The notes beneath the pieces were generated by a model, which was not told the DNA's origin, did no database searches, and saw nothing but the letters and a program-made list of their open reading frames with translations. The translations under genes were made by a program, and so were the position numbers. Of a stretch of DNA of 64,000 nt, positions 45,542 through 59,838 are shown in pieces. Within the stretch, counting starts at the first letter, position 1. Every line of letters starts with the position of its first letter. This DNA comes from Actinomycetospora corticicola (GTDB taxonomy: Bacteria; Actinomycetota; Actinomycetes; Mycobacteriales; Pseudonocardiaceae): contig NZ_JACCBN010000001.1 in assembly GCF_013409505.1 (NCBI RefSeq), positions 1,178,001 through 1,242,000 on the forward strand. Reading direction: 5' to 3'.

Positions 45542-46543
45542 TCACCGCAGGGCGTCCAGCACGAGGTCGACGTCGGCGTCGGTGTTGTGCAGGTGGAAGC
45601 CCACCCGGATGGCGCCCGCACGGGCGGCGCAGCGCACTCCGGCGTCGAGCAGGCGCTGCGGGTCGCCGGGGACGGAGACGATCGGGCTCGGCGACGGCGG
45701 GAGGTCGAGCGCGGTCCGCAGGCGGGTCGCGAGCCCGACGCCGTGGGCGTGCACCGCGGACCGGTCGAGCCCGGCGAGCCACGGCAGGGCGACGGCGGCG
45801 CCGACGAAGGACGACCAGGCGGGGGAGACGTCGAGCCGTCGTGCCGTCCCGGCGAGGCGCAGCGGGAGGCCGTAGACCGTGCTCCACCGGTCCTCGCCCG
45901 CGTACCAGCCCGCCGCGCTCGGCGTGGTCCGCTCGAGGGCCCGCCCGGAGTACGCGGCCCACGCACAGCCGCGCGGGGACAGCAGCCACTTGTAGCCCCC
46001 GGCCACCACCACGTCGGCCCACGACAGGTCCGCCGGCAGCCAGCCCAGCGACTGCGTCGCGTCGAGCACGACGAACGCGCCCGACGCGCGGAGGGCCTCG
46101 AGGTCGACCAGCGCGCCGTCGGCGGACTGGGCCACGCTCACGGCGACGACCTCGTGCTCGGCCGCCCGTGCGCCGACCTCGGCCACCGGAACCTCGGTGA
46201 CCTCGTGTCCGCAGGCCGCGAACGGGAAGCTGACGCTGGTGAACTCGCCGGCGGCGGTGAGCACGCGGGTGCCCGCGGGGAAGGACGCCGCCACCGGTCC
46301 GAGCAGCCCGGAGACGACCGAGCCGACCGCCACGCCCGTCGTCGGGAAGCCGGTGAGCGCGGCGAAGGCCTCGCGCGTGGCGTCGACCGGGGCGTCCATC
46401 GCGGGCGCGGAGACGGCGCCGGTCGCCCAGTCGTCCACCCAGGCGCGGACGGCGTCGACCACGTGCCGCGGCGGAACGCCGACCGAGGGGGTGTTCAGGT
46501 AGCCGGGTCCGACGTCGAACCGGGCGTCGAAGGCGGTGATCAC
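45542..46543 (-). CDS. Class V PLP-dependent aminotransferase family protein
   Basis: Fold-type I PLP enzyme (333 aa) similar to isopenicillin-N epimerase / cysteine desulfurase-like proteins. The PLP lysine is Lys185 in VVAGGYKWLLSPRG; the cofactor-stacking Asp lies in VVLDATQSLGW. It is shorter than full cysteine desulfurases and lacks an obvious catalytic Cys loop, so desulfurase activity is unlikely (inference). It starts at GTG 46543, 55 bp after the nuoN stop, with repeat copy C filling that gap. Confidence 0.83.
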   Translation of the reverse strand: MITAFDARFDVGPGYLNTPSVGVPPRHVVDAVRAWVDDWATGAVSAPAMDAPVDATREAFAALTGFPTTGVAVGSVVSGLLGPVAASFPAGTRVLTAAGEFTSVSFPFAACGHEVTEVPVAEVGARAAEHEVVAVSVAQSADGALVDLEALRASGAFVVLDATQSLGWLPADLSWADVVVAGGYKWLLSPRGCAWAAYSGRALERTTPSAAGWYAGEDRWSTVYGLPLRLAGTARRLDVSPAWSSFVGAAVALPWLAGLDRSAVHAHGVGLATRLRTALDLPPSPSPIVSVPGDPQRLLDAGVRCAARAGAIRVGFHLHNTDADVDLVLDALR

Positions 46544-46555
46544 GGCACCGACGAT

Positions 46556-46601
46556 GTGGCTTTCCTGCCACTGGATGCAAGCAACGACGCTTTCCTGTCA
46601 C
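46556..46601 (-). repeat. Copy C of the GGCAGGAAAGC repeat, at the nuoN stop
   Basis: Minus-strand sequence begins at the nuoN TGA: GTGACAGGAAAGCGTCGTTG, continues CTTGCATCCA, then GTGGCAGGAAAGCCAC. The unit GTGRCAGGAAAGC is thus repeated at a 30-bp spacing. It fills the nuoN-aminotransferase gap. Confidence 0.8.
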
Positions 46602-48022
46602 AGGGGGACGAGCGCGAGCGCCGCCGATCCCACGACCGATCCCACGGCGAGCACGACCGCCACCACCCGCGCCCGCGGCGCCACCGGGTCGCGCAGCACC
46701 GGGTCGCCCGCGGAGAAGACCGGGGCGATCCAGCGCAGGTAGTAGAAGAGGCTCGCGATCGAGTTCAGCACCACCACGACGGCGAGCCACGCCGCCCCGC
46801 TGTCGAGGGCCGCGGCGAGCACGCCGAGCTTGCCGGCGAAGACGACGGTCGGCGGGGTCCCCACGAGGCCGAGCAACCCGGCCGCCAGGGCCACCGCGAG
46901 CGCCGGGTGCCGACGGGCCAGTCCACGCTGCTCGCCGATCTCGACGGCGTGCGGGCGGGCGGCGAGGACGGCGAAGGCGACGAGGTTGGTGACGGTGTAC
47001 GCGGCGAGGTAGCCGAGCAGGGTCGGCAGCGCGAGCACGGTGTCCCGCGCCACCGCGACCGGCACCAGGAGGTACCCGACCTGGCTCACCGTCGAGTAGG
47101 CCAGCAACCGGCGCAGGGAGGTCTGGGCGAACGCCGCGAGGTTGCCCAGGGTCATGGACGCGACGGCGAGGATCGCGACGACGAGCGGCGTCGGCACGCC
47201 CGGGACGGCGAGCGTCAGCCGCCACACGGCCACGAGCGCGCCGATCTTGGCGGTGGTGGTGAGCACGGCGCCCGTGACCGGGGCGGTGCCGTCCACGGCG
47301 TCCGGCACCCAGAAGTGCGCCGGGACGGCGCCCGCCGCCATCAGCAGCCCCGCCAGGACCAGGATCATCCCGACGGCGGGTGCGGGTCCGGTCAGCCCCG
47401 CGAGGGCCGGGTAGGCGGTGGCCCCGGCGAGCCCGAGCAGCAGTGTCGTGCCGGTGAGGGCGAGCAGCCCGAAGAGCGCCGAGGACAGGAAGTACTTCAG
47501 CGCCGCCTCGGTGGCGCGCCCGTCCCGTCCGAGGCCGGCCAGGGCGGCGAGCGGCAGGCCGGCGAGCAGGATCGCGGCGGCGAGCAGGAGCAGGTCGGTC
47601 GCGCCGCCGAGCAGCATCGCGCCGACCGCCGAGAGCTGGAGCAGGACGGCGAACGCGGTGTCGACCCGGGCCGTCGTCGGGGAGTCCGCGGTCAGCGGTG
47701 GCCCACCGCTGCCGCTCGACGTCAGCCGTGGCCCACCGCTGACGTCCGGGCGGTCCCCGGCGAGCACCAGCGTCACCACGACGGCACCGGCCACGACGAC
47801 GCGCACCACCGTGGTGGCCGCGTCCACCAGGTACGTGCCGTCGAAGGCGGCTCCCCGGGGACCGACGAGCGCGACCACGACGGCGGCCAGCGCGAACAGC
47901 ACCCCGATCCCGCGGACCGCGCCCTCCCGGCCGGGCGGCAGCCACGTCCCGACGGCGAGCCCCAGCACCGCCCCGAGCGCGACCAGCGCCTCCGGGGCGA
48001 GCGCGAGCAGGTCGGCGGTCAC
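46598..48022 (-). CDS. nuoN: NADH-quinone oxidoreductase subunit N-like (complex I membrane arm)
   Basis: Antiporter-like membrane subunit (474 aa, about 13-14 hydrophobic segments). PAHFWVPDAVDGTAPVTGAVLTT, read as AHFWVPDAVDG, is the proton_antipo_M signature with its conserved Lys partner in TTTAKIGAL; SLRRLLAYSTVSQVGYLL is also canonical. An extra polar insert (RPDVSGGPRLTSSGSGGPPL) near residues 93-112 is encoded by a tandem palindromic repeat. The GTG start overlaps the nuoM stop; the stop merges with repeat copy C. Last gene of the operon. Confidence 0.9.
   Translation of the reverse strand: MTADLLALAPEALVALGAVLGLAVGTWLPPGREGAVRGIGVLFALAAVVVALVGPRGAAFDGTYLVDAATTVVRVVVAGAVVVTLVLAGDRPDVSGGPRLTSSGSGGPPLTADSPTTARVDTAFAVLLQLSAVGAMLLGGATDLLLLAAAILLAGLPLAALAGLGRDGRATEAALKYFLSSALFGLLALTGTTLLLGLAGATAYPALAGLTGPAPAVGMILVLAGLLMAAGAVPAHFWVPDAVDGTAPVTGAVLTTTAKIGALVAVWRLTLAVPGVPTPLVVAILAVASMTLGNLAAFAQTSLRRLLAYSTVSQVGYLLVPVAVARDTVLALPTLLGYLAAYTVTNLVAFAVLAARPHAVEIGEQRGLARRHPALAVALAAGLLGLVGTPPTVVFAGKLGVLAAALDSGAAWLAVVVVLNSIASLFYYLRWIAPVFSAGDPVLRDPVAPRARVVAVVLAVGSVVGSAALALVPL
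47691..47743 (-). repeat. Tandem palindrome GTCAGCSGTGGCCCACCGCTG inside nuoN
   Basis: Two copies 30 bp apart (47691-47711 and 47721-47743); each is nearly self-complementary, with arms CAGCGGTGG/CCACCGCTG. They encode a polar loop insert in NuoN between hydrophobic segments. The unit differs from the GGCAGGAAAGC family. Confidence 0.65.
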
Positions 48023-49590
48023 CGTGACACCAGGTCCACCACGGTCGCGGCGGCCGGGGCGATCGTGGAGGTCACCAGCGCGGGCGCGAGCCCGATCGCG
48101 AGGGAGCCGGCGAGGAGCAGGCCGACCGCGGCGGTCTGGGTGACCCGCAGGTCGGGGGAGGCGGGACGGCGGAACGTCCCGGTGCGCGGCGGGGTCCGGT
48201 CGGCGGCGCGGGGGAGGTGCCGGTCGCCCAGCAGCATCGACTGCAGGGCCCGCACGAACAGCGCGGCGGTCACGGCCAGGCCGAGGGCGGCCAGCGCCGC
48301 GGCGACGGGGACGGCGGGCAGCGATCCCGCGATCATCGAGAACTCGGCCACGAACCCCGACAGCCCGGGGAGTCCCAGCGAGGCGAAGGCCGCCACCGCG
48401 AACGTCCACGAGAAGCGCGGCATCGGGCCGGCGATCCCCGACCACGCGGCGATGTCGGAGGTCCCGCCCCGCTCCCGCAGCACGCCGGCCAGCAGGAACA
48501 GCGCTGCGGTGACGAGCCCGTGCGAGACCATCTGCACCGTCGCCCCCGTGACGGCGAGGCCCCGGGCCTCCGGACCCGCCGTCAGGAACCCCGCGGCGCC
48601 GAGCGCGAGCAGGACGTAGCCCATGTGGTTCACCGACGTGTAGGCGACCATCCGCTTGAGGTCGCGCTGCGCGAGCGCCACCAGCGCCCCCCACAGGACC
48701 GACACCACGCCGAGGACCACGGCGATGAGCGCGACCGAGCGCCACGGGCCGGGCAGCAGCGGCAGCGCGATCCGGAGGAATCCGTAGGTGCCCATCTTCA
48801 GCAGCACGGCCGCGAGGATCGCGGAGCCGCCGGCCGGGGCGTCGGTGTGCGCGGGCGGCAGCCAGGTGTGCACCGGCCAGACCGGGGTCTTGATCGCGAG
48901 CCCGATCCCGATCGCGACCAGGGCGAGGGTCCCGGCCACGCCGCCGAGGGGGCGGGCGGCCAGCGTCGGGATGTCGAAGGTGAGCTGCGGCCCGGACACG
49001 GCGAGCGCGAGGAAGCCGAGCAGCATGACCAGCGACCCGACGAACGTGTAGAGGAAGAACTGGAGCGCCGACCGGGCCGCCGTCGAGGTTCCGGCTCCGC
49101 TGCGCTGCGCGTCCTGCGCCCCCGACCCCCACCCGGCGATCACGAAGTACATCAGCACGATCGCGACGTCGAAGAAGACGAAGAACAGCACGAGGTCGAG
49201 GGCGACGAACACGCCGATCGACACGGCCTCGAGCCCGAGGAAGAGCAGCACGTAGCCGCGGGTCCGGCGCGGATCGGTGTCGCCGTCCTGGGCCGGGTCG
49301 GCGCGCAGCGAGTACAGCGCGACGGCGAGGAACACCAGCGCCGTCATCCCCACCAGCGGCGCGGACAGTCCGTCGAGCCCGACGTGGTAGCCGACCCCGA
49401 ACGCCGGGATCCACGGCACCACCACCTCGTGCGCGTAGCCGACCCCCACCCCCGCCCACGCGATGCCCGCGAGCACCACCTCGAGCAGGGCGAGCACCGT
49501 CCACGCGCCGAGCAGCACCTCCCGGCGCGTCACCGGTACGAGCAGCAGCGCCACCACCAGCGGCGCGACCCACATCGCCGTCAGCATCAC
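48019..49590 (-). CDS. nuoM: NADH-quinone oxidoreductase subunit M-like
   Basis: Antiporter-like membrane subunit (523 aa). The helix with the key carboxylate reads VLFFVFFDVAIVLMYF: Asp141 stands where NuoM normally has Glu (Glu144 in E. coli). The proton-channel AIKTPVWPVHTWLPPAHTDAP is conserved, as is LKRMVAYTSVNHMGY. The N-terminus is GTG 49590, overlapping the nuoL stop; the 3' end overlaps nuoN. The substitution keeps the charge, so proton pumping may persist. Confidence 0.9.
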   Translation of the reverse strand: MMLTAMWVAPLVVALLLVPVTRREVLLGAWTVLALLEVVLAGIAWAGVGVGYAHEVVVPWIPAFGVGYHVGLDGLSAPLVGMTALVFLAVALYSLRADPAQDGDTDPRRTRGYVLLFLGLEAVSIGVFVALDLVLFFVFFDVAIVLMYFVIAGWGSGAQDAQRSGAGTSTAARSALQFFLYTFVGSLVMLLGFLALAVSGPQLTFDIPTLAARPLGGVAGTLALVAIGIGLAIKTPVWPVHTWLPPAHTDAPAGGSAILAAVLLKMGTYGFLRIALPLLPGPWRSVALIAVVLGVVSVLWGALVALAQRDLKRMVAYTSVNHMGYVLLALGAAGFLTAGPEARGLAVTGATVQMVSHGLVTAALFLLAGVLRERGGTSDIAAWSGIAGPMPRFSWTFAVAAFASLGLPGLSGFVAEFSMIAGSLPAVPVAAALAALGLAVTAALFVRALQSMLLGDRHLPRAADRTPPRTGTFRRPASPDLRVTQTAAVGLLLAGSLAIGLAPALVTSTIAPAAATVVDLVSR

Positions 49591-51461
49591 CGCACCCCCG
49601 CCGTCACCACGACCACCGCCACCCCCGCCAGCACGCCGATCGCGATCACCCCCTGCGCGTAGTACTGGTGCTGCTGTCCGGTCTGCGGGCGCCGCGCCAG
49701 GTCACCGAGGCGCCGGACCCCGGCGGCCAGCCGGTCGATCGCCCCCGCGAGCGGCCGCTCGCCGTACCGGTCCACGCCCCGCGCGAGGGTCGGAACCGTC
49801 GCCGCGGCCCGGGGCACGGCCCGGCCGAGCGTCGCGTCGGCCCGGTCGAGCAGGCGCGCCAGCGCGAGGACGGGTGTCCCGACGACGGGTCCGACCAGCG
49901 CCTCGAGCCCCAGCCAGCCGCGCGCGGTGGCGGCCGCCCGACCCCACGCCGACGAGCGCAGCCGCACCGGCCGGCTGTGCAGCACCCAGGTGGCGGCGGC
50001 CGCGAGCAGCACCACCACCCCCGTCGTCACGAGCTCGCCCGGGTCGGCGCCGGGGACGAGGCCGACCGCCACCGCGACGCCGCCGAGGGCCACGGCGGGC
50101 ACCGCGAGCACGGCGAGGGCGACGGTGATCGCGACCGGCACGTGGCGCCGGGGGCGGTCCCCGTCGGTGCCGCGCCGGATCGACGGCGAGCGCACCGGCC
50201 GCCACACGAACCAGGCGGCGCGCGTGGCCGAGACCGCGGAGAGGACCGTGGCGAGCAGGGCGGCGACGGTGAGCCCGCCGTCGCCGAGCGGGATCCCGGT
50301 GAGGACGGCGTCCTTGGTCCACCACAGCGAGAGCGGGGGCACGCCGGCGAGGGCGACCGCGCCGAGGGTGAACGGCACGCCGACCGCCGGGTGGCGCCGG
50401 GCCGCGCCGCGCAGCGCGGGCAGGGCCCGGGTACGGAGGAGGGCGAGCCACCCGCCCGCGGCGAGGAAGAGGAGCGCCTTGACCGCGGCGTGGGCGACGA
50501 GCAGGCCCGCCGCCCCGGCGGACGCGCCGACCCCGGCGCCCAGCACCATCAGGCCCACCTGCGAGCAGGTCGAGGCGGCGAGCAGCTGCTTGAGGTCGCG
50601 CTGCACGCAGGCGACCACGCCGAGGACCACCGCGGTGAGGCCGCCGACCCAGGCGACGGTGCCGGCGGCCCAGCCGGTCGCGGCGAGCAGCGGCGCGGAC
50701 CGCAGGAGCAGCACGGCCCCGGCGGCGACCATGGTGGCCGAGTGCAGCAGGGCCGACACCGGGCTCGGCCCGATCATCGCCCCGGAGAGCCAGCCGGAGA
50801 ACGGCAGCTGGGCGGACTTGCCGAGCGCGGCGACCACCAGCCCGGCCGCGACCGGTGAGCTCCACGCCGGGTCGGCGTCGCCGAGGGCGGCGAACGAGAG
50901 GCCGGGCACCCCGGCCGCGAGGGCCGCGCCGGTGGCGACGTAGAGCCCGACGTCGGCCGTCCTCGTCGTCAGGAAGGCCCGGCCCGCGGCGGGGCCGACC
51001 GCCGGGTCGCGGCGGTCGAAGGCGATGAGCGCCCAGCTCGCCGCGCCCATGACCTCCCACGGGGCGAGCAGCGCGGGCAGCGTCGCGGCGGTGACGGTCG
51101 CGAGCATCGCGCCCAGGAAGACCAGCACCATCCCCACGAAACGACCGCGCCGGAGCCGTTCCTCACCGGCCGCGGCGAGCAGCACGAGGGCGCCGATCAC
51201 CGCCACCGTCACGGCGAGGACGGCGCCGAGGCCGTCGACGGCGTAGGTGAACGTGATCCCGGGGACGAGCGGGACGACCAGGGCGGGGGTCATGACGGCC
51301 GGCCGGGAGGCGGCGAGCTCCACCGCGAGGACCGCGGTCACCACCGCCGCGACGCCCCCGGCCGCGACGACGGGCGCCCCCGTGGCGCGGGGGAACGCGG
51401 TGACCAGCAGCAGCCCGGCGAGGATCGGGACGGCGAGCAGCAGCGCCAGCAGGAGGCTCAT
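49587..51461 (-). CDS. nuoL: NADH-quinone oxidoreductase subunit L-like
   Basis: Largest antiporter-like subunit (624 aa). Conserved carboxylate region PWEVMGAASWALIAFD keeps the Trp-Glu pair, unlike NuoM here. PSPVSALLHSATMVAAG and DLKQLLAASTCSQVG are canonical. The C-terminal part has a long amphipathic stretch and a final transmembrane segment (QTGQQHQYYAQGVIA), as in the lateral helix of NuoL. ATG 51461 overlaps the nuoK stop by 4 bp. Confidence 0.9.
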   Translation of the reverse strand: MSLLLALLLAVPILAGLLLVTAFPRATGAPVVAAGGVAAVVTAVLAVELAASRPAVMTPALVVPLVPGITFTYAVDGLGAVLAVTVAVIGALVLLAAAGEERLRRGRFVGMVLVFLGAMLATVTAATLPALLAPWEVMGAASWALIAFDRRDPAVGPAAGRAFLTTRTADVGLYVATGAALAAGVPGLSFAALGDADPAWSSPVAAGLVVAALGKSAQLPFSGWLSGAMIGPSPVSALLHSATMVAAGAVLLLRSAPLLAATGWAAGTVAWVGGLTAVVLGVVACVQRDLKQLLAASTCSQVGLMVLGAGVGASAGAAGLLVAHAAVKALLFLAAGGWLALLRTRALPALRGAARRHPAVGVPFTLGAVALAGVPPLSLWWTKDAVLTGIPLGDGGLTVAALLATVLSAVSATRAAWFVWRPVRSPSIRRGTDGDRPRRHVPVAITVALAVLAVPAVALGGVAVAVGLVPGADPGELVTTGVVVLLAAAATWVLHSRPVRLRSSAWGRAAATARGWLGLEALVGPVVGTPVLALARLLDRADATLGRAVPRAAATVPTLARGVDRYGERPLAGAIDRLAAGVRRLGDLARRPQTGQQHQYYAQGVIAIGVLAGVAVVVVTAGVR

Positions 51462-51769
51462 CCGGCGAGCTCCCCGGCGTCGTCGGTGAGGTCGACCTGC
51501 CGCGCGCGGTAGATCGCGAGGGCCACGGCGAACCCCATCGCCATCTCCACGGCCATGACGGTCACGAGCACCACGACCAGCACGCTCGCCGCGACCGGCT
51601 GCCCACCGGCCCACCAGAACGCGCCCGCGCCGAGGATCAGGCCGTTCACCACGAGCTCCAACCCCATCATGATCATCACGATCGACTGCTGGGACAGCGC
51701 GCCGTAGAGCCCGGTGGCCACCAGCGCGGCGGCCGCGGTGAGCGCGAGGCGCAGGACGAGCTCGGTCAC
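51458..51769 (-). CDS. nuoK: NADH-quinone oxidoreductase subunit K-like
   Basis: Three-helix membrane subunit (103 aa). The proton-path Glu is kept in VMIMMGLELVVNGLIL, and AVEMAMGFAVALAIYR matches helix 3 with its second Glu. GTG 51769 overlaps nuoJ; the 3' end overlaps nuoL. Confidence 0.9.
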   Translation of the reverse strand: MTELVLRLALTAAAALVATGLYGALSQQSIVMIMMGLELVVNGLILGAGAFWWAGGQPVAASVLVVVLVTVMAVEMAMGFAVALAIYRARQVDLTDDAGELAG

Positions 51770-52251
51770 CGTCGACTCACCGCCACGGCCACGGTCCCGA
51801 CGATCGTGGCCAGCAGCGCGAGCCCGAGCGTCATCATCGTCAGCATCTGCCCGCCCATGAGCGCGTCGCCGAGGGCGGCCGTGGGGTCCGGACCCGGGGC
51901 AGGACCCGACGTCGGGAAGGGGACCAGCCACACCCCGGCAGTGAGGAGCCCGAAGACGACGAGCGCGATCGCCCAGGAGCCGCGCCGGTTGTGGACCATC
52001 GTCATCGGCATCAGCCCCGCCGGGTTCATCATCAGCATGACCATGAAGACGACCATGATCATCATCTCGGTCGTCATCATGAGGATGACGACCGTGCCGA
52101 GGTAGCCGAGCCCGAACGCGATCAGCACGACCGCCACCGCGACGAACGAGGCCAGGAGCAGGAACGTCGCCCGGGCCATCGAGTCCACCGTGAACACCAG
52201 GAGCCCGGTGATCACCGCGACCGCGCCGAGGGCGCTCACCAGCGCGATCAC
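51766..52251 (-). CDS. nuoJ: NADH-quinone oxidoreductase subunit J-like
   Basis: Five-helix membrane subunit (161 aa). Helix 3, the site of the pi-bulge in complex I, is here unusually Met-rich (GTVVILMMTTEMMIMVVFMVMLMM region), a divergence from standard NuoJ. GTG 52251 overlaps nuoH. Met-rich membrane segments sometimes contact Cu(I), and this operon begins with copA; that connection is speculative. Confidence 0.83.
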   Translation of the reverse strand: MIALVSALGAVAVITGLLVFTVDSMARATFLLLASFVAVAVVLIAFGLGYLGTVVILMMTTEMMIMVVFMVMLMMNPAGLMPMTMVHNRRGSWAIALVVFGLLTAGVWLVPFPTSGPAPGPDPTAALGDALMGGQMLTMMTLGLALLATIVGTVAVAVSRR

Positions 52252-53168
52252 GCGAGCACCACCAGCGTGACGACGAGCGACTGGGCGACGGCGAGCGGGA
52301 GCAGGACGACCCAGGAGAGCGTCGCGAACCGGGCCATCCGCAGCATCGGCACGGCGCGGCGCAGGGCCAGGAGCAGGCCGAGCACGACCACGAGCTTCAC
52401 CGCGAACCACAACACCGGCAGGCCGGGGAAGGGGTCGGGGCCGGTGATCGGCGGCGGTGCGCCTCCGCCGAGGAACAGGGGCACCGCCATCGCCGCGGCG
52501 GCGGTGAGCAGCATCCAGCGGCCGGCGAGCAGGAGCAGCCGGTCGAGCCCCGCGTGCTCGGCGGCGGCCCCGCCCGCGAGGTCGCGGCCCAGTGGCGCGG
52601 CGAACGGGCCCCAGAAGGCCATCGCGGCGACCGAGAGCAGGTAGAGCAGGAACGCCGCCGGCATCCAGACGACGTACCAGAGGTCCTGCTGGGCCGCGGC
52701 GATCGCGGTGGGGGAGAGCGACCCGGCGGCGATGGCCGGGGTGATGATCGCGAACATGTGCGGCAGCTCGTAGGCCAGGCCCAGCGGCAGGACGCGGTAG
52801 CCGCCGGCCAGGGTCGTGGCGGCGTTCGGCCCCCACCCGAACACCCACACCGCGAACCAGGCCACGACCTCCATCGCGTTGAACCACACGACGCCGACGT
52901 CGAGGTCGACCGGGGCCCGGTCGCCGAGCGGCACGACGGCGAGCGCGAGGACGGCCGCGACCGGCAGGGCGACGAGCCCGATCCGGGCGAGGGCCGGGTC
53001 GTCCGCGGGGGTGCGGCGGCGCTGGGTGCCCAGGAGCCGGAGGGTCTCGACGACGGGGGTGCTCGGGCGCTCCCCGGCCGTCACCGCCTTCGCGCCCGCG
53101 GCGAGCCCGGCGACGAGGACGAGGGCCGGGGCGAGGAGGACGAGGACGAGGAGCTCAGTGGTGCTGAT
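52248..53168 (-). CDS. nuoH: NADH-quinone oxidoreductase subunit H-like, probable AUC start
   Basis: Membrane subunit (306 aa from AUC) that in complex I links the quinone site to the pumping arm. Eight or so hydrophobic helices; the EVVAWFAVWVFGWGPN-type middle and LWFAVKLVVVLG near the end fit NuoH, but the peripheral-arm contact loops are shortened. The frame has no ATG, GTG or TTG between an in-frame TGA and GTG 53084. Starting there would lose a complete first helix (TTELLVLVLLAPALVLVAG). AGGAGG (53180-53175) lies 6 nt before ATC 53168-53166, so AUC initiation is proposed; GTG 53084 is the conservative alternative. Confidence 0.72.
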   Translation of the reverse strand: MSTTELLVLVLLAPALVLVAGLAAGAKAVTAGERPSTPVVETLRLLGTQRRRTPADDPALARIGLVALPVAAVLALAVVPLGDRAPVDLDVGVVWFNAMEVVAWFAVWVFGWGPNAATTLAGGYRVLPLGLAYELPHMFAIITPAIAAGSLSPTAIAAAQQDLWYVVWMPAAFLLYLLSVAAMAFWGPFAAPLGRDLAGGAAAEHAGLDRLLLLAGRWMLLTAAAAMAVPLFLGGGAPPPITGPDPFPGLPVLWFAVKLVVVLGLLLALRRAVPMLRMARFATLSWVVLLPLAVAQSLVVTLVVLA

Positions 53169-54153
53169 GGGTCACCTCCTCCGGCGTGTGGGCGGCGACC
53201 GGGCCGGCGCCGAGCGTGGTGTCGGGGTCCATCGCGGCGAGCGCGAGCCGGGCGGCCCCGAGCTCGAGCCCCACGAGCGCCCCCACCGCCTTCTCCGCCG
53301 TCGGGCGGACCGGCGGGGCGAGGCTGCCCCCGAGACCGCCCGCGAGGTTCGCCACCCGCTGCTCCAGCGTGCGCTCCTCGACCGGCCCACCCACGAGCGG
53401 GACCCCGCGGACGGCCCACCGCAGCGGGCGGTTCCGGCGCAGGCGCCGCCCGAAGGCGGTGAGGTCACCGGGGGCGGGGTCCTGGTCGCGGAGCCGGCGG
53501 GCGCGGACGGCGAGGTGGTCGGCGCCGAGCAGGCCGAACACGCGGGTGAGGATGTCGAGCCGGGTCCGGTCGGGCCCGAGGGGTGAGCGGCCGCGGCTGC
53601 CGGGACCGACGCTCGCCGGGACGTCGAGCACCTCGGCCCGGGCGTCGGTGATCAGGTCGCCCGCGAGCGTGGCGTGCACCACGAGCCCGGCCGGCCAGTG
53701 CGGGAGCACCGGCCCCAGCGCCACGTGCAGGGCGTCGAGGGCGAGCCCGTCGCGGTCGTAGAACGCGAGGTCGGCCATCTGGGCCTCGGGCCCCGTCCCT
53801 CCTGGCAGGAGAGCGTCGTTGCTGTCGTCGGGCGACAGCAACGACGCTTTCCTGCCATGCGGGTCGACGAGCGCCGCCGCCGCGTCGTCGAGCACCGACC
53901 GGACCACACCGGTCGTCGGGACGGTTGTGAGCACCCGCGGCGCCGGGACTCCTGCCCACACGGCACGCACCACTCCGCCCAGCCGCGGGCCCGGCGTCCC
54001 CAGCACGAGGACGACGTCGGTGTCGGCGGGGGAGTCCGCGACGGGCCACCGACGGCGGCCGAGCTCGGCCTCCACGGCGAGGCGCAGCGCGGGGTCGACG
54101 GTCGCGGGCGCGATCGTCAGGACGTGCGGGCGGCGGGCGACCAGCGACCCCAC
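53155..54153 (-). CDS. Degenerate NuoB-NuoD-like fusion (protein X of the nuo operon)
   Basis: A 332-residue soluble protein between nuoA and nuoH, where nuoB, C and D usually lie. Residues about 25-110 resemble NuoB (ADTDVVLVLGTPGPRLGGVVRAVW and PAPRVL recall the NuoB strand-helix before its cluster) but lack the cluster cysteines. Residues about 145-190 (DALHVALGPVLPHWPAGLVV) resemble the NuoD start LxLGPxHPxxxG with the invariant residues altered. Between the halves is an in-frame repeat copy (53804-53856). No FeS, FMN or quinone-site motif is visible. GTG 54153 has GAGG upstream. Whether it caps the membrane arm as a redox-silent adapter is inference. Confidence 0.6.
   Translation of the reverse strand: MGSLVARRPHVLTIAPATVDPALRLAVEAELGRRRWPVADSPADTDVVLVLGTPGPRLGGVVRAVWAGVPAPRVLTTVPTTGVVRSVLDDAAAALVDPHGRKASLLSPDDSNDALLPGGTGPEAQMADLAFYDRDGLALDALHVALGPVLPHWPAGLVVHATLAGDLITDARAEVLDVPASVGPGSRGRSPLGPDRTRLDILTRVFGLLGADHLAVRARRLRDQDPAPGDLTAFGRRLRRNRPLRWAVRGVPLVGGPVEERTLEQRVANLAGGLGGSLAPPVRPTAEKAVGALVGLELGAARLALAAMDPDTTLGAGPVAAHTPEEVTHQHH
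53804..53856. repeat. Copy D: 24-bp stem hairpin of the GGCAGGAAAGC family, in frame inside gene X
   Basis: Two opposed copies of the repeat core flank a 5-nt loop (TCGGG), with a single mismatch in the stem. On the minus strand it encodes about GRKASLLSPDDSNDALLPG, inserted between the two halves of the NuoB/NuoD-like protein without breaking the frame. Confidence 0.8.
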
Positions 54154-54158
54154 GGACC

Positions 54159-54518
54159 TCAGGACCACCGGAAGGCGCCCTCCCGCCAGGCGTAGCCGAC
54201 CCCGACCAGCAGGATCCCGAGGAACACGAACATCTCCACGGCCGCGCCCGTCCCGGTCCGCGCCACGACGAGCGTCCACGGGTACATGAAGAGCATCTCC
54301 ATGTCGAAGGCCAGGAAGACCAGCGCGAGCGTCGGCCACCGGACGTGCCAGCGGGAGACGGCGTGCTCCGTCACCGGCATCCCGCCGGCGTGCGGGGCGG
54401 CGACGAGCGGGCGACGCACCCCGGCGGCCGCCCGGACCAACCACGACACCGCGACGACGATCCCGACCCCGACGAGGGCTGCCCCGCCGACGACGGCGAG
54501 CGCCACGAACGGGTTCAC
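54159..54518 (-). CDS. nuoA: NADH-quinone oxidoreductase subunit A-like
   Basis: Three-helix subunit (119 aa). The diagnostic FDMEMLFMYPW motif (normally FDVEVVFLYPW) in helix 2 and the C-terminal GVGYAWREGAFRW are present. GTG 54518 overlaps the copA stop by 4 bp, so nuoA translation is coupled to the copper ATPase. Confidence 0.88.
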   Translation of the reverse strand: MNPFVALAVVGGAALVGVGIVVAVSWLVRAAAGVRRPLVAAPHAGGMPVTEHAVSRWHVRWPTLALVFLAFDMEMLFMYPWTLVVARTGTGAAVEMFVFLGILLVGVGYAWREGAFRWS

Positions 54519-56713
54519 CGGAACCGCCGCAGCCGCAGGCTGTTGCCCACGACGAACACGCTGGAGAACGCCATCGCGGCGCCCGCGACCATCGGGTTGA
54601 GCAGCCCGAGAGCCGCCAGCGGGATGGCCGCGACGTTGTAGGCGAACGCCCAGAAGAGGTTGCCCCGGATCGTCGCGAGCGTGCGGCGGGCGAGCCGCAG
54701 CGCGTCCGGGACGGCGAGGAGGTCCTCGCGGACGAGGGTCACGTCGCCGGCCTCGATCGCCACGTCCGTCCCCGTGCCCATCGCGAGCCCGAGGTCGGCC
54801 CGGGCGAGCGCGGCGGCGTCGTTCACCCCGTCGCCCACCATCGCGACGGCGTGGCCCTCGGCCTGCAGCGCGGCGACGGCGTCGGCCTTCTGCTCCGGCA
54901 GCACACCCGCACGGACGTCGTCGATCCCCACGCTCGTCGCCACCGCCCGCGCGGCGGCCTCGTGGTCACCGGTGAGCAGCACCGGGCGCACCCCGAGCGC
55001 CCGCAGCGCCCGGACGGCGTCGGCGGAGGTCTCCCGCACGGTGTCGGTCACGGCGAGCACCGCCCGCGCGGCACCGTCCCAGCCCACGACGACGGCGGTG
55101 GCCCCGTCGGCCTGCGCGGCCTCGAGATGGGCGGTCAGTGCGGGTGAGAGCGGCATCCCGCGCTCGGCGAGCAGCGCGGGTCGGCCGACGAGCACCTCGG
55201 TACCGTCCACCGTCCCGCTCACCCCCAGCCCGTCGATCGTCCGTGCCTCCGTCGCGGCCGGCAGCGGGCCGTCCCGACGGCCCGCCTCCGCGATCGCCCG
55301 GGCGATCGGGTGCGTGGACCCGTCCTCCACCGCGGCCGCGTACCGCAGGGCGGTGTCGTCCACGTCCCCCACGACGCGCATCCGCCCCGTGGTGAGGGTG
55401 CCGGTCTTGTCGAGCACCACCGTGTCGACGCGCCGGGTGGACTCCAACACCTCCGGGCCACGCAGCAGGATGCCCAGCTGCGCCCCGCGGCCGGTGCCGA
55501 CCATGAGCGCGGTCGGCGTGGCCAGCCCCAGCGCGCACGGGCAGGCGATGATGAGGACGGCGACGGCCGCGGTGAAGGCCCCGCTCACGTCGCCGGCGAG
55601 CACGAGCCAGCCCACGAAGGTGGCGACGGCCATCAGCACGACGACGGGCACGAAGACGCCCGACACCCGGTCGGCCAGGCGCTGGATCTCCGCCTTGCCG
55701 TTCTGGGCATCGGCCACCCGTCGGGCGATCCGGGCGAGCTGGGTGTCCGCGCCGACCTTCGTGGCCCGCACCACCAGCCGCGAGCCCACCGCCACGCAGC
55801 CGCCCACCACGTCCGCCCCCGGCGCGACCTCGACCGGCACCGACTCCCCGGTCACGGTGCTCGCGTCGACCGCGCCCACGCCGGAGACGACGACGCCGTC
55901 GGTCGCCACGCGCTCGCCGGGCCGGACCACGAACTCGCTCCCGACGACGAGCCGCTCCACCGGCACCCGCGTCTCGGTGCCGTCGACCAGGAGCGCGACG
56001 TCCTTCGCGCCGAGGTCGAGCAGCGCCCGCAGCGCGGCACCCGCCCGGCGCTTGGCGCGGGCCTCGAAGAACCGGCCGGCGAGCACGAACGTGGTGACCG
56101 CGGCCGCGGTCTCCAGGTAGATGGCGTCCCCGGGGTCGGCGGTGAAGGACAGCGTGTGGGTCATCCCGGGCATCCCGGCGTCCCCGAACAGCAGCGCCCA
56201 CACCGACCACAGCAGGGCGGCCAGCGTGCCGAGCGAGATCAGGGTGTCCATCGTCGCCGTGCCGTGCCGCAGGTTCACGGCCGCGGCCCGGTGGAAGCGC
56301 CAACCGCCCCAGACGACCACGGGCGCGGCGAGCACCAGCGAGATCCACTGCCAGTCGACGAACTGCCAGGCCGGGGCCATCGCGAGGACCACGACCGGCA
56401 CGGACAGCGCCGCACTGACGAGCACGCGGTGCCGGAGCTCGTCGACCTCGCTCCCGTCGTGCCCGGCGTCGGGCTCCTCGCCTGCGGACGGCGGGGTGGC
56501 GCCGTAGCCGAGCTGCTCGACCGTCTCGACCAGCGTGCCGGTCGACATCCCGGCGGGGTGGTCGACGTGCGCGTTCTCGGTCGCGTAGTTGACGCTCGCC
56601 GTGACGCCCTCGAGGCGGTTCAGCTTCTTCTCGATACGCATCGCGCACGAGGCGCACGTCATCCCGGAGATGGCGAGCTGGGTGCTCGCGCGGCCGTCGA
56701 GGGCGGGCGTCAT
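54515..56713 (-). CDS. copA: Copper-exporting P1B-type ATPase
   Basis: Cu(I)-pumping ATPase (732 aa). N-terminal heavy-metal domain with GMTCASC (Cys20, Cys23), the transmembrane Cys-Pro-Cys at 391-393, actuator TGES, phosphorylation site DKTGTLT with Asp435, nucleotide-domain His-Pro (STHPIARAI) and GDGVNDAAAL. The gene is divergent from csoR across a copper-repressor operator. Its stop overlaps nuoA. ATG 56713 is chosen; GTG 56722 is also possible. Confidence 0.95.
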   Translation of the reverse strand: MTPALDGRASTQLAISGMTCASCAMRIEKKLNRLEGVTASVNYATENAHVDHPAGMSTGTLVETVEQLGYGATPPSAGEEPDAGHDGSEVDELRHRVLVSAALSVPVVVLAMAPAWQFVDWQWISLVLAAPVVVWGGWRFHRAAAVNLRHGTATMDTLISLGTLAALLWSVWALLFGDAGMPGMTHTLSFTADPGDAIYLETAAAVTTFVLAGRFFEARAKRRAGAALRALLDLGAKDVALLVDGTETRVPVERLVVGSEFVVRPGERVATDGVVVSGVGAVDASTVTGESVPVEVAPGADVVGGCVAVGSRLVVRATKVGADTQLARIARRVADAQNGKAEIQRLADRVSGVFVPVVVLMAVATFVGWLVLAGDVSGAFTAAVAVLIIACPCALGLATPTALMVGTGRGAQLGILLRGPEVLESTRRVDTVVLDKTGTLTTGRMRVVGDVDDTALRYAAAVEDGSTHPIARAIAEAGRRDGPLPAATEARTIDGLGVSGTVDGTEVLVGRPALLAERGMPLSPALTAHLEAAQADGATAVVVGWDGAARAVLAVTDTVRETSADAVRALRALGVRPVLLTGDHEAAARAVATSVGIDDVRAGVLPEQKADAVAALQAEGHAVAMVGDGVNDAAALARADLGLAMGTGTDVAIEAGDVTLVREDLLAVPDALRLARRTLATIRGNLFWAFAYNVAAIPLAALGLLNPMVAGAAMAFSSVFVVGNSLRLRRFR

Positions 56714-56730
56714 CGTCTCCACGTCTCCAG

Positions 56731-56786
56731 GGATACCCCCAGGGGGTACCGGCGTCAATCCTCGTAGGGATACCCCACCCCGGTAT
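56731..56786. promoter_or_regulatory. CsoR operator pair between copA and csoR
   Basis: Two GC-rich inverted elements: GGATACCCCCAGGGGGTACC (56731-56750) and GGGATACCCCACCCCGGTAT (56768-56787). Such ATACCCCC/GGGGGTAT dyads are typical CsoR sites. The second overlaps the TATGAT -10 of csoR (56784-56789). Copper binding to CsoR should release both promoters. Confidence 0.8.
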
Positions 56787-56796
56787 GATGACACCC

Positions 56797-57090
56797 GTGA
56801 GCGAGCACCAGCACGGCTACTCCCCGCACAAGGACGCCCACCTGCGTCGCCTCAAGCGTGTCGAGGGGCAGGTGCGGGGGATCGCGCGGATGGTCGAGGA
56901 GGACAAGTACTGCATCGACGTCCTCACGCAGGTCAGTGCGGTGACCGGGGCCCTGCAGAACCTCGCGCTCGCGCTCCTCGAGGAGCACATGGGCTCCTGC
57001 GTGGTCGACGCCGCGAAGGCGGGCGACGAGGAGGCGAAGGAGAAGGTCGCCGAGGCCTCGGCCGCGATCGCGCGGCTCGTGCGGTCCTGA
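56797..57090 (+). CDS. csoR: Copper-sensing repressor CsoR
   Basis: All-helical DUF156 repressor (97 aa from this start). The Cu(I) ligands are readable as Cys39 (DKYCIDVL), His64 and Cys68 (EEHMGSC). DNA contacts come from the conserved RRLKRVEGQVRGI helix. TATGAT ends 7 nt before GTG 56797, giving a leaderless start; ATGs at 56785 and 56788 lie inside that box and are less likely. Together with copA it forms the copper switch. Confidence 0.92.
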   Translation: MSEHQHGYSPHKDAHLRRLKRVEGQVRGIARMVEEDKYCIDVLTQVSAVTGALQNLALALLEEHMGSCVVDAAKAGDEEAKEKVAEASAAIARLVRS

Positions 57091-57454
57091 CGGCGGTCCC
57101 TCCCGGACGAGGTGACCCCGCCGCCCCGGGGGGAGGGGCGACGGGGTCGGTGCGGTCCACTCGGGGGGCGAGGGACCGGCGCGCAGGACTGTCCCATCTT
57201 CACCTAGTTGCACGCAATGTGAGCAACCCCGCGCCGCGCGCGCCGAACCGACGGGCTGCGGGCCGCCCGGGTCCCGGTGCACGCGGGGTGCCGCCGGCCG
57301 CGACCCGGACATGACCGACGCCACGCCCTGCCCGCGCCCCGCGCGGATGCCTCCGACCGGCCGCGGTGTTGGACAGGATGCCGCTCCGACACCGTTCCGA
57401 GACCGGGACCCGGGGCGGCGGATCCGGGCAACGGCGCCCGGGGAGGAGGACGTC
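57091..57454. other. 364-bp gap between csoR and DUF3099 gene
   Basis: No supported coding region. It contains the csoR terminator (57114-57148) and the TTGCACGCAA palindrome (57208-57217), related to 18840-18851. A frame open from 57311 is low-complexity and is not supported; the promoter of the DUF3099 gene was not located. Confidence 0.6.
57114..57148 (+). terminator. Terminator stem-loop after csoR
   Basis: GACCCCGCCGCCCC (57114-57127) pairs with GGGGCGACGGGGTC (57135-57148) with one mismatch around a 7-nt loop. Twenty-three bases after the csoR stop. Confidence 0.7.
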
Positions 57455-58312: not shown

Positions 58313-58651
58313 GTGATCAGTAAGACTGCCTACGTGAATGCCGAAGCTTCCGACCGGGCCGTCGCACACGAGTGCGAGGGGCTCGAGGACCTCGGGGCAG
58401 CCGTCCTGGCGCAGGCCGAGGGCTGGATCGAGAACGGGGTCGGCGAGGACGTCGGGCTGGCCCTCGTGCAGAACGCCCTGCCGTTGATCGAGGACACCGG
58501 CCACCTCACCCGCCTGCAGCGACGCTCGCACGCCCAGGTGCTGCTGGGGTTGCTCCTGCTGCTCGACGACCCGATGGCCGGGGGGATCGCGACCGAGCTC
58601 GTCGAGCTCCTGCACGGCGCGGCCACGGAGGCACGCGTCCTCGCGAGCTAG
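58313..58651 (+). CDS. Hypothetical helical protein, 112 aa
   Basis: Unrecognised. Predominantly helical and acidic, with a Leu-rich segment (QVLLGLLLLLDDP) near residues 78-91. GTG 58313 or GTG 58334 could start it. The 3' end overlaps the convergent CoA-transferase gene by 4 bp. Confidence 0.5.
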   Translation: MISKTAYVNAEASDRAVAHECEGLEDLGAAVLAQAEGWIENGVGEDVGLALVQNALPLIEDTGHLTRLQRRSHAQVLLGLLLLLDDPMAGGIATELVELLHGAATEARVLAS

Positions 58652-59838
58652 TCGGGCCAGAGCGGACGCAGCGCCCGCCGTCGCTCCCCACGGTCCAGGC
58701 CGCGCAGGTCGGCCACCCCGTGCTCGGTGACCACGACGTCGACGTCGTGGCTCGCCGTCGTCACCGGCCGCGACAGCCGTTCGACCATCGTGGGGACGCC
58801 GCGGTGCGTGCTGGCCAGGGCGATCACGGAGAGACCGTGGCGCGACCGGGTGGCGGCCGCGGCGTAGTCCGGGTGCCCGCCGATCCCGCCGACGATCGCG
58901 GACGCCGGGCCCTCGACGTTGACCTGACCGTCGCGGTCGATCTCCACGGCCGTGTTGACCGCGACGAGGGGTGGGTCGGCGGCGAGCCGGTTCGGGTCGT
59001 GGGTGACCTCGACGCCGTGGAGCACGGGGCGGCCCGCGCGACCGTGCTCGTCGGCCCACCCGTACAGCCGGGGGGTGCCGACGAGGTAGGTGGCGGTCGG
59101 GGTCGAGGCGAGCAGGCCCGCCTCGTCGAGGTCCACCACGGGGTCGCCGAGCAGGCCGGAGTCGGCGTGCACGGGGCGACCGCGGTCCAGGATGCCCCGC
59201 ACCACGGCCTGGCCGAGCTGGCCGGGCGCCCACTGGACCCGGGCGTCGTCGGGGAGCAGCCCCGCGACGAGCTCGCCGATGCGGCGGTGCTCCGGGCTCG
59301 GCTCGGGGGCCACCGGCACGACGGCCGGACCGTCCGACGCGTGCCCGATCACGAAGGTCTGGTCCTCCGGCAGCGGTGGACCCGACGCGGCGCGGGGGAG
59401 CGCGTCGTCGAGCACGACCGCGAGCGGCACCCCGGCGTCGATCGCGACCCGCATCCACGAGACCTCGCTGCCGAGCACCGGCCCGTAGGGTCCCGGCGCC
59501 GCGGACACCACGAGGAGGTCCGGGCGCAGCGGTCCCGCGAGGAGCGCGGGCATCGCCGACAGGCGCGCCGGGACGGCCCGGACATGCCCCTGCGACACCC
59601 CCGCACGCAGCCCCCAGCCCGGCATGACCGTGCGGGCGTCGGCGAAGGCGGCGAGGTCGAGGCCCTCCACGGGCGCCGGCATCCACCCGAGCACGAGCCG
59701 CAGGTCCCCCCGCTCGCGTGCGATCCCGCCGAGCGCGGGGAACGCCGCGCGCGGGGTCCCGCACCCGTCGGCCACCGCGATCCGCGCCCCCGGCCGCATC
59801 AACGAGGACAGGGCCCGCGTGTCGATCTCCGCGTTCAC
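58648..59838 (-). CDS. Acetyl-CoA hydrolase/transferase family CoA-transferase
   Basis: Class I CoA-transferase of the 4-hydroxybutyrate / acetyl-CoA hydrolase type (396 aa). The IGGHPDYAAAA glycine loop is diagnostic. The catalytic Glu is likely that in VNTAVEIDRDGQVN. It would exchange CoA between acetyl-CoA and another carboxylate. GTG 59838 has GAGGAG about 8 nt upstream. No obvious pathway partner adjoins it. Confidence 0.85.
   Translation of the reverse strand: MNAEIDTRALSSLMRPGARIAVADGCGTPRAAFPALGGIARERGDLRLVLGWMPAPVEGLDLAAFADARTVMPGWGLRAGVSQGHVRAVPARLSAMPALLAGPLRPDLLVVSAAPGPYGPVLGSEVSWMRVAIDAGVPLAVVLDDALPRAASGPPLPEDQTFVIGHASDGPAVVPVAPEPSPEHRRIGELVAGLLPDDARVQWAPGQLGQAVVRGILDRGRPVHADSGLLGDPVVDLDEAGLLASTPTATYLVGTPRLYGWADEHGRAGRPVLHGVEVTHDPNRLAADPPLVAVNTAVEIDRDGQVNVEGPASAIVGGIGGHPDYAAAATRSRHGLSVIALASTHRGVPTMVERLSRPVTTASHDVDVVVTEHGVADLRGLDRGERRRALRPLWPD

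Follow-up and report, generated by a model that had tools for sequence, protein, structure and literature searches.

What does the membrane arm of respiratory complex I do when no redox subunit is encoded beside it and when its genes run on from a gene for a copper ATPase? This question is raised by a locus of Actinomycetospora corticicola within a stretch of 64,000 nucleotides, referred to here as the window (positions 1,178,001 to 1,242,000 of G000:C1, the single contig of a 6.17-Mb genome). On the minus strand of the window, nine overlapping genes follow one another in the order copA-nuoA-X-nuoH-nuoJ-nuoK-nuoL-nuoM-nuoN. We have little doubt that the encoded arm is redox-free and associated with copper, and on balance we take it for a derivative of complex I that transports Cu(I), being induced by copper and driven by protons. 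This interpretation is favored because it needs the fewest extra assumptions to account for: the lost redox and quinone motifs; the metal-binding modules of long relatives; a methionine axis in the membrane; the copper genes and operators that are often nearby; and the proton channels, which are largely kept.

Pfam supports every gene of the string except X. Downstream of copA, all on the minus strand, are genes for subunits of the NuoA type (54159..54518; PF00507, E = 7.5e-22), the NuoH type with a predicted ATC start (52248..53168; PF00146, E = 5e-37), the NuoJ type (51766..52251; PF00499, E = 1e-13) and the NuoK type (51458..51769; PF00420, E = 1e-10), followed by three antiporter-type subunits matching PF00361, namely NuoL (49587..51461; E = 6e-41), NuoM (48019..49590; E = 3e-54) and NuoN (46598..48022; E = 7e-41). 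Between nuoA and nuoH lies gene X (53155..54168), a predicted fusion of NuoB-like and NuoD-like parts, as judged from a predicted structure; it has 106 homologues and a ratio of nonsynonymous to synonymous differences (pN/pS) of 0.30. All frames of the string are open. An earlier note on this DNA had described the string as lacking redox subunits and as linked by GTGA and ATGA overlaps, and both statements hold: Pfam finds no match to a complex I redox subunit (NuoE, F, G, C or I) in the string, and every one of the eight junctions between copA and nuoN is an overlap, of four bases in six cases (GTGA at copA/nuoA, H/J, J/K, L/M and M/N; ATGA at K/L). The nuoA/X overlap is 10 bases, and that of X and nuoH is 14 if nuoH starts at ATC 53168. 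The stretch where this start is expected, the X/nuoH junction (53155-53168), has no ATG, GTG or TTG; ATC stands there in the window and in three related loci (L034, L035 and L036), and the start codon is ATG in two other relatives (L037 and L038). Judging from these sequences, nuoH likely initiates at AUC.

The gene copA (54515..56722, minus strand) is predicted to encode a copper-translocating P1B ATPase, with HMA and E1-E2 ATPase matches in Pfam, a score of 516.7 bits against the NCBIfam model TIGR01511 for the copper-translocating type (cut-off 397) and the P1B-1 motifs (HMA, MTCASC, CPC and DKTGT). Divergent from it is csoR (56785..57090, plus strand; PF02583, E = 9e-30), which encodes a copper repressor of the CsoR/RicR family; the product reaches 149 bits against the NCBIfam RicR model, below the cut-off of 175, and carries Cys43, His68 and Cys72, which we take to be the C-H-C copper site of CsoR. 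The copper-repressor dyads previously reported at the copA promoter correspond to two predicted CsoR-type operator sites, both read on the minus strand: a perfect type-2 CsoR-like operator upstream of copA (TACCCCCTGGGGGTA, 56734..56748) and a second operator-like site with 9/10 matches at the csoR start (TACCGGGGTGGGGTA, 56771..56785). The type-2 pattern, TAC-N9-GTA with C/G tracts, is present between csoR and copA, and the exact form TACCC-N5-GGGTA occurs at one place in the genome (zero for a reversed-pattern control). The Streptomyces lividans CsoR operator is such a type-2 site, in which TAC-N9-GTA is essential (PMC3902906). Visual inspection of the window finds a TTGACG hexamer, a possible promoter element, immediately upstream, with the operator inside the spacer after it, but the promoter scan gave no site. 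The copA start had been put at 56794; GTG 56722, downstream of the operator, is the most likely start on the sequence, and we would replace the former with it. CsoR-type control brings about induction under copper excess, and we consider it highly probable that the window locus is copper-regulated.

The coupling of nuoA to copA stands as the earlier note proposed it, and the four-base overlap recurs in 6/6 Actinomycetospora relatives, in three of them at the matched start and in the other three if the upstream-most start is taken. As copA and nuoA overlap, a terminator has no room between them. A scan of 46400-57200 found no terminator-like or sigma-70-like pattern, a weak test, as shuffled sequences would be expected to give 0.8 and 0.0 of these, respectively. 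A promoter within copA may also exist.

Relatives of the locus were examined in two sets. The named-genome set holds the best 80 of 257 relatives and leans to the genus of the query. The even sample of the phylum covers 396 genomes, 24 of them with an X match of at least 43 bits; 20 loci from 19 genomes were used, the window genome and four Rubrobacter-type genomes (G164, G173, G142 and G222) being left out. The order A-X-H-J-K-L-M-N recurs in 74/80 named loci, the other six being incomplete on short or cut stretches; with the same order in so many genomes, the idea of a sequencing artefact was dropped. Two layouts of the control region were seen: in the one found in Actinomycetospora, csoR and copA diverge and the end of copA overlaps nuoA, and in the other (13 loci, 4 genera) csoR is divergent from nuoA itself at a distance of 195-349 bp, the gap often holding two operators. 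Within about 700 bp upstream of nuoA, an exact operator is present at 17/79 loci and one with at least 9/10 matches at 29/79; eight control patterns gave 0 exact sites and 0-3 at the looser threshold, and canonical nuoA genes gave 0/20. The even sample has an operator upstream of nuoA in 5/20 loci. Operator-bearing loci without csoR on the fetched stretch include those of Arthrobacter echini (L040) and Rhodococcus (L056).

Copper genes recur as neighbors. Among clusters of flanking frames in the named set, a copper-type P-ATPase is found at 34/80 loci (15 genera), CsoR at 27/80 (11 genera), DUF305 at 18/80 (10 genera), a small HMA protein at 13/80 (8 genera) and a multicopper oxidase at 6/80. 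At least one of copA, csoR and copZ (the copZ counts include the HMA domains of copA) lies within 9.6 kb upstream of nuoA at 35/80 named and 8/20 even-sample loci, compared with 0/20 for canonical nuoA; the upstream stretch was shorter than 7 kb for three of the 20 even-sample loci and one control. By group, this linkage amounts to 12/12 in Actinomycetospora, 7/14 in Pseudonocardia, 6/7 in the Rubrobacter type and 2/13 in the other even-sample loci. When any of five upstream markers or an operator is counted, 13/20 even-sample loci have a copper link. The operon is also carried by plasmids: a tblastn search with the Thiogranum X gave eight plasmid records covering at least 80% of the query, and the four examined each have an annotated eight-gene operon. 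Their neighbors within 16 kb are: in Sulfitobacter, a CusA-type resistance-nodulation-division (RND) protein, Sco, CopB, a cupredoxin and a multicopper oxidase; in Rubrobacter tropicus, directly upstream of nuoA, DUF305, a metal P-ATPase, a metal-sensitive regulator and a copper-binding protein; in Paracoccus, one metal P-ATPase downstream; and in Nitratireductor, MerR, a multicopper oxidase, DUF1775 and CopD. Homologous loci without copA, a possibility raised in the earlier note, are thus numerous, but intact redox subunits, which it had set beside that possibility, lie alongside in 0/80.

Redox-subunit matches at the 80 loci are limited to two distant NuoG pieces (L056 and L072) and, in L108, two weak NuoB pieces that fall on X itself. 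A separate full nuo locus, for which a genome search had been suggested, was found at about 4.02-4.04 Mb. Pfam, with NuoF not scanned, recognizes the canonical subunits NuoA, B, C, D, E, G, H, J, L, M and N there, and the translated sequence shows NuoI and NuoK as well. PF00346 (NuoD) matches a single place in the genome, at 4.034 Mb. PF00361 matches eight places: three in the full operon, three in the window locus and two at 4.042-4.046 Mb, which NCBIfam matches best to Mrp subunits D and A, as partial pieces below cut-off. The full nuo operon and these likely MrpA and MrpD genes thus lie within a few kb of one another (G000:C1:4021000-4047000; L010 and L011).

X, the identity of which the earlier note did not give, is no unrelated filler. 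The predicted structure (m282644d8c9d9) with structural alignment gives a NuoB-like part at residues 1-104 and a NuoD-like part at 131-321, and on this modelled fold, with the long relatives described below also pointing to the NuoD part, the window X is a fused, cofactor-free NuoB-NuoD homologue. Pfam gave no match to the window X, PF19335 (a heavy-metal-binding domain with CxMHPE...CGM) included; with E up to 10, weak NuoB or NuoD matches appeared in three of ten X relatives, and hhalign with the X-side query A1 matched NuoB at E = 5e-5. Cysteine is absent from the window X and from 63/106 short relatives, with at most one in 86/106, and the Cys-Cys pair of the N2 cluster occurs within the first 140 residues in 2/106 short and 0/120 long relatives. 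In NuoD, the histidine motif GPxHPxxHG serves the quinone site; it was found in 0/226 X proteins.

What the family has instead are histidines and metal-binding domains. Of the short forms, 100 of the 106 could be parsed; at least four linker histidines are present in 50/100, at least three histidines in the last 25 residues in 41/100, and one or the other of these in 86/100, the window X, with 0 in its linker, standing at the poor end of the family. A divergent even-sample group has long X frames (669-860 residues, stop to stop), exemplified by RxyAA322_22050 of Rubrobacter xylanophilus; all seven scanned carry PF19335, all seven match PF00346 (one below cut-off), and PF01058 (NuoB) is weak. 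A search with a long X gave 1186 matches, not all of them X proteins as the query holds PF19335; among the best 120, which include Thiogranum longum and another gammaproteobacterial sequence, a precomputed domain column lists PF19335 in all and PF00346 in 118, and the CxMHPE motif was matched in 111/120, with up to 11 copies. One of them (P0214) is named a copper-translocating ATPase in its source record. As a separate observation, the linker of the window X contains a palindromic dispersed repeat (53804..53856, minus strand); the repeat GGCAGGAAAGCGTCGTTGC and its complement occur at 161 places in the genome with at most 2 mismatches (83 + 78; reversed control 0), including 46581-46599, 1155-1173 and 1469-1487 of the window, so that one pair is in frame inside X and one arm is at the end of nuoN.

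Methionines set NuoJ, NuoK and NuoA apart from their canonical counterparts, the control being the 30 loci that scored best in a phylum sample of 119 genomes. Median methionine content, operon versus canonical, is 10.7 vs 3.0% in NuoJ, 8.7 vs 4.0% in NuoK and 5.1 vs 2.4% in NuoA. Numbered from the GTG of nuoJ, NuoJ has eleven methionines (M25, M58, M59, M63, M66, M70, M74, M75, M83, M85 and M136) that are each present in 97 of 97-98 relatives and at 4/4 plasmid loci, compared with 0-1 of 29-30 canonical NuoJ proteins. Most of them form a stripe (M58, M59, E62, M63, M66, M70, M74 and M75, then M83, M85 and H87; 51991..52080, minus strand), in which M59, M63, M66, M70 and M74, spaced by 4, 3, 4 and 4, occupy one helix face; a structure model (m2153915358a5; predicted local distance difference test, pLDDT, 78.6; predicted template modelling score, pTM, 0.59) has a single helix at 49-75. 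Canonical NuoJ has mostly Val, Tyr, Ile, Leu and Val at the stripe-helix positions, the near-universal Tyr corresponding to Met59 here. E62 is Glu in 97/97 relatives vs Ala in 30/30 canonical proteins, and H87 is His in 97/99 vs mostly Gly. On the minus strand of nuoK, Met32 and Met34 are near Glu38 (51665..51676) and Met72 and Met76 are around Glu75 (51542..51556). M32 is found in 97/98 relatives, 0/28 canonical proteins and 4/4 plasmid loci, M34 in 97/97, 0/28 and 1/4, and M72 and M76 in 97/98 and 94/97 relatives, respectively, with 0/29 canonical and 4/4 plasmid loci for each. In NuoA, Met75 and Met78 stand beside Asp72 and Glu74 (54285..54296, minus strand), each in 100/100 relatives and 4/4 plasmid loci, vs 0/29 and 2/29 canonical proteins. 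Methionine pairs and stripes carry Cu(I) in transporters such as Ctr1 and CusA.

The proton channels, scored against the canonical subunits of the same genome, are largely kept. NuoL keeps Glu136, Lys215, Lys291, Lys328 and Lys383 (92 rows). In NuoM (94 rows) Lys234, Lys265 and Glu416 are kept, and Asp141 replaces the canonical Glu in 92% (the Rubrobacter type has Glu). NuoN has Leu (Leu152 in the window) for the canonical Glu of transmembrane helix 5 in 94% of 47 rows, and the window has Ala229 for a Lys kept by 72%. In NuoH the quinone-side acids are replaced, e.g. canonical Glu260 by Arg in all 92 rows. In a NuoL tree of 68 rows, 37 operon rows (34 of 96 available plus three plasmid rows) fall on one side of a branch (100/96) and 30 canonical rows on the other, while the single Mrp row has a very long branch and its placement says little. 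Relative to three Actinomycetospora species, pN/pS for the nuo genes is 0.09-0.24, X having the value given above.

How could such an arm handle copper? In the mechanism we propose, copper would lift CsoR, and the entire string would then be transcribed. X would occupy the place that the quinone module has in complex I. Cytoplasmic Cu(I) would be collected by the histidine tail of the window X and elsewhere by the His/Met-rich linker of X (many actinobacterial relatives) or by PF19335 (Rubrobacter and Proteobacteria). It could then pass from Met83, Met85 and His87 of NuoJ along Met74, Met70, Met66, Met63 and Met59 of the stripe to the methionines that neighbor acidic residues in NuoK and NuoA, driven by protons moving through NuoL and NuoM. 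That the arm moves copper through the membrane seems to us an evenly balanced matter. Export is held to be the likelier direction because the string is shared with copA and under CsoR-type control, although as a claim in its own right it is rather doubtful. The wider proposal, that a branch of the complex I superfamily in Actinomycetota and Proteobacteria, partly on plasmids, has given up electron transfer and converted its quinone module and the middle axis of its membrane arm into a proton-driven copper pump, often controlled by CsoR, is a possible one that we put forward tentatively. The earlier note had imagined merely a copper-induced proton pump; the induction fits, but the conserved methionines and the metal-binding domains of relatives point instead to the handling of copper itself.

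Several observations weigh against the Cu(I) transporter. No copA, csoR or copZ was seen upstream in 45/80 named and 12/20 even-sample loci, and the upstream copper genes number 0/9 in Actinomadura and 0/4 in Cryobacterium. Plasmids are rich in metal genes generally, and the plasmid neighbors were counted without a control. The window X has no PF19335, no cysteine and no linker histidine, only its tail being His-rich (4 His in 25 residues), and PF19335 may bind metals other than copper. Its assignment also has softer points: hhalign of query A1 against one NuoD sequence was insignificant, the best Foldseek E-value was 0.012, and 31/120 long X proteins have at least one cysteine within the first 130 residues, yet without a Cys-Cys pair. 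The methionine-rich helices, as read from sequence, suggest Cu(I) without proving it, and the loss of the NuoN helix 5 Glu, together with the Lys in the window, may alter proton coupling.

The same evidence can be set against other explanations. One is a redox-free antiporter, of the proton or sodium/proton type, that would deal with salt and pH and have the copper genes as mere co-regulated stress neighbors; an antiporter of this kind has been proposed for the seven-gene set of Salinispora, the 'partial NDH-1' (PMC3314556, PMC4018334 and PMC6002675). The Mrp-like NuoL, NuoM and NuoN with largely kept proton residues and the many relatives lacking a nearby copper gene agree with it; however, it does not account for the PF19335 domains of X or its His-rich linkers, for the eleven NuoJ methionines that are specific to the lineage and conserved in two phyla, or for the CsoR-type operators upstream of nuoA, and we regard it as unlikely. 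We think no better of a copper-gated proton channel or pump regulator, in which X senses Cu(I), the arm alters the proton-motive force and copper exits via CopA alone. Metal-binding modules on the very subunit expected to be coupled to the channel, the presence of copA in the string and the kept proton residues would suit it, but sensing by X needs neither a methionine stripe in NuoJ nor methionines beside the NuoA and NuoK acids. An importer of Cu(I), or a device loading copper into cuproenzymes such as multicopper oxidase or cytochrome oxidase, could draw on the multicopper oxidase, Sco or CopD genes near some loci; since CsoR-type control induces at copper excess, and the window operon overlaps a gene for an export-type ATPase, this is less probable again.

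Two further explanations were weighed. It might be a spare membrane arm to which the peripheral arm of the complex I encoded elsewhere in the chromosome could dock, and the full nuo operon in the same genome would provide one. Yet X holds the NuoB-NuoD place without the N2 cysteines, the quinone-loop acids of NuoH and the NuoD histidine motif are gone, and the operon family is confined to one side of the tree branch, all of which makes such docking very improbable; an ordinary second complex I was likewise considered and dropped. Alternatively, a nuo operon may have been duplicated and one copy left to decay; such a relic would agree with the dispersed repeat in the X linker and the lost NuoN channel residues, but pN/pS values of 0.09-0.30 for the nuo genes and X, the open frames and the gene order kept in 74/80 loci argue for selection, and on this evidence the idea of a relic, hardly credible to us, was dropped.

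We return to the Cu(I) transporter and to how it compares with known systems. The homology of its parts to complex I is plain and the seven-gene set itself is already published; the copper connection is frequent (35/80 loci) and not constant. Penn and Jensen (2012, PMC3314556) described the seven nuo genes as a 'partial NDH-1' and read them as a marine adaptation. Salinispora and other actinobacteria have a 'Partial 2' NDH-1 operon, which shares nuoA, H, J, K, L, M and N without redox subunits, and it forms an actinobacterial clade whose nearest clades are proteobacterial, likewise here; the accessible portion of that account invokes an ion-motive force for marine life and does not mention X, copper genes, operators or methionines. 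Respiratory complex I, with its 14 subunits, resembles the locus in its membrane-arm subunits, the NuoB and NuoD folds and the channel residues (NuoN in part), but the locus lacks the NADH module, the iron-sulfur ligands, the quinone motif and NuoC, E, F, G and I, and its NuoJ, NuoK and NuoA are rich in methionine. NuoEFG are missing from the locus and also from a complex I-type enzyme described in print, but that enzyme keeps the Q-module, in the place of which the locus has a cofactor-free fusion that carries metal domains in its long relatives. Mrp, also redox-free and related to complex I, has antiporter-type subunits and is not known to have NuoH, NuoA or NuoB-NuoD parts. By Pfam, the locus has NuoA and NuoH, and the MrpA- and MrpD-like genes are separate in the genome. 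The CopA/CopZ/CsoR export operons of actinobacteria, with S. lividans as the example, share the operator type, repressor family, ATPase and chaperone neighbors with the locus, and the consulted portion of the account of that copper regulon does not mention complex I genes (PMC3902906). An Alteromonas copper-resistance survey (PMC8478169) places hydrogenase genes in a copA island, with no nuo terms in the portion of text at hand. A literature search, with subscription papers and preprints outside its scope, gave nothing in the accessible texts that joins the operon, or a NuoB-NuoD protein with heavy-metal domains, with copper. We hold the system to be new because it departs from what defines complex I and Mrp and because no such system was found in the texts searched.

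The coupling of electron transfer to proton pumping in complex I is still debated. If our interpretation is correct: a natural version, its electron half exchanged for a cofactor-free module with metal domains and its acidic axis lined with methionine, shows that the membrane arm can drive, or be driven by, something besides redox chemistry, and makes coupling accessible to experiment; bacterial copper defense gains, besides P1B ATPases and Cus-type pumps, a derivative of complex I driven by protons; and a function is given to a gene set treated since 2012 as a partial NDH-1 for marine life.

Some minor observations were made along the way. A protein of about 350 amino acids lies beside csoR or copA at 16/80 loci in 7 genera (L052:726-1781 and 15 others); its representative had no match in Pfam or NCBIfam. 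BNR-repeat proteins (8/80 loci) and DUF305 recur beside the operon (L083:5402-6445, L060 and L124). The coding region of nuoN contains two copies of another short repeat, CAGCGGTGGGCC (window 47700-47741). Outside the string, an acetyl-CoA hydrolase/transferase-like frame at 58648-59838 of the window matches chiefly the C-terminal domain model.

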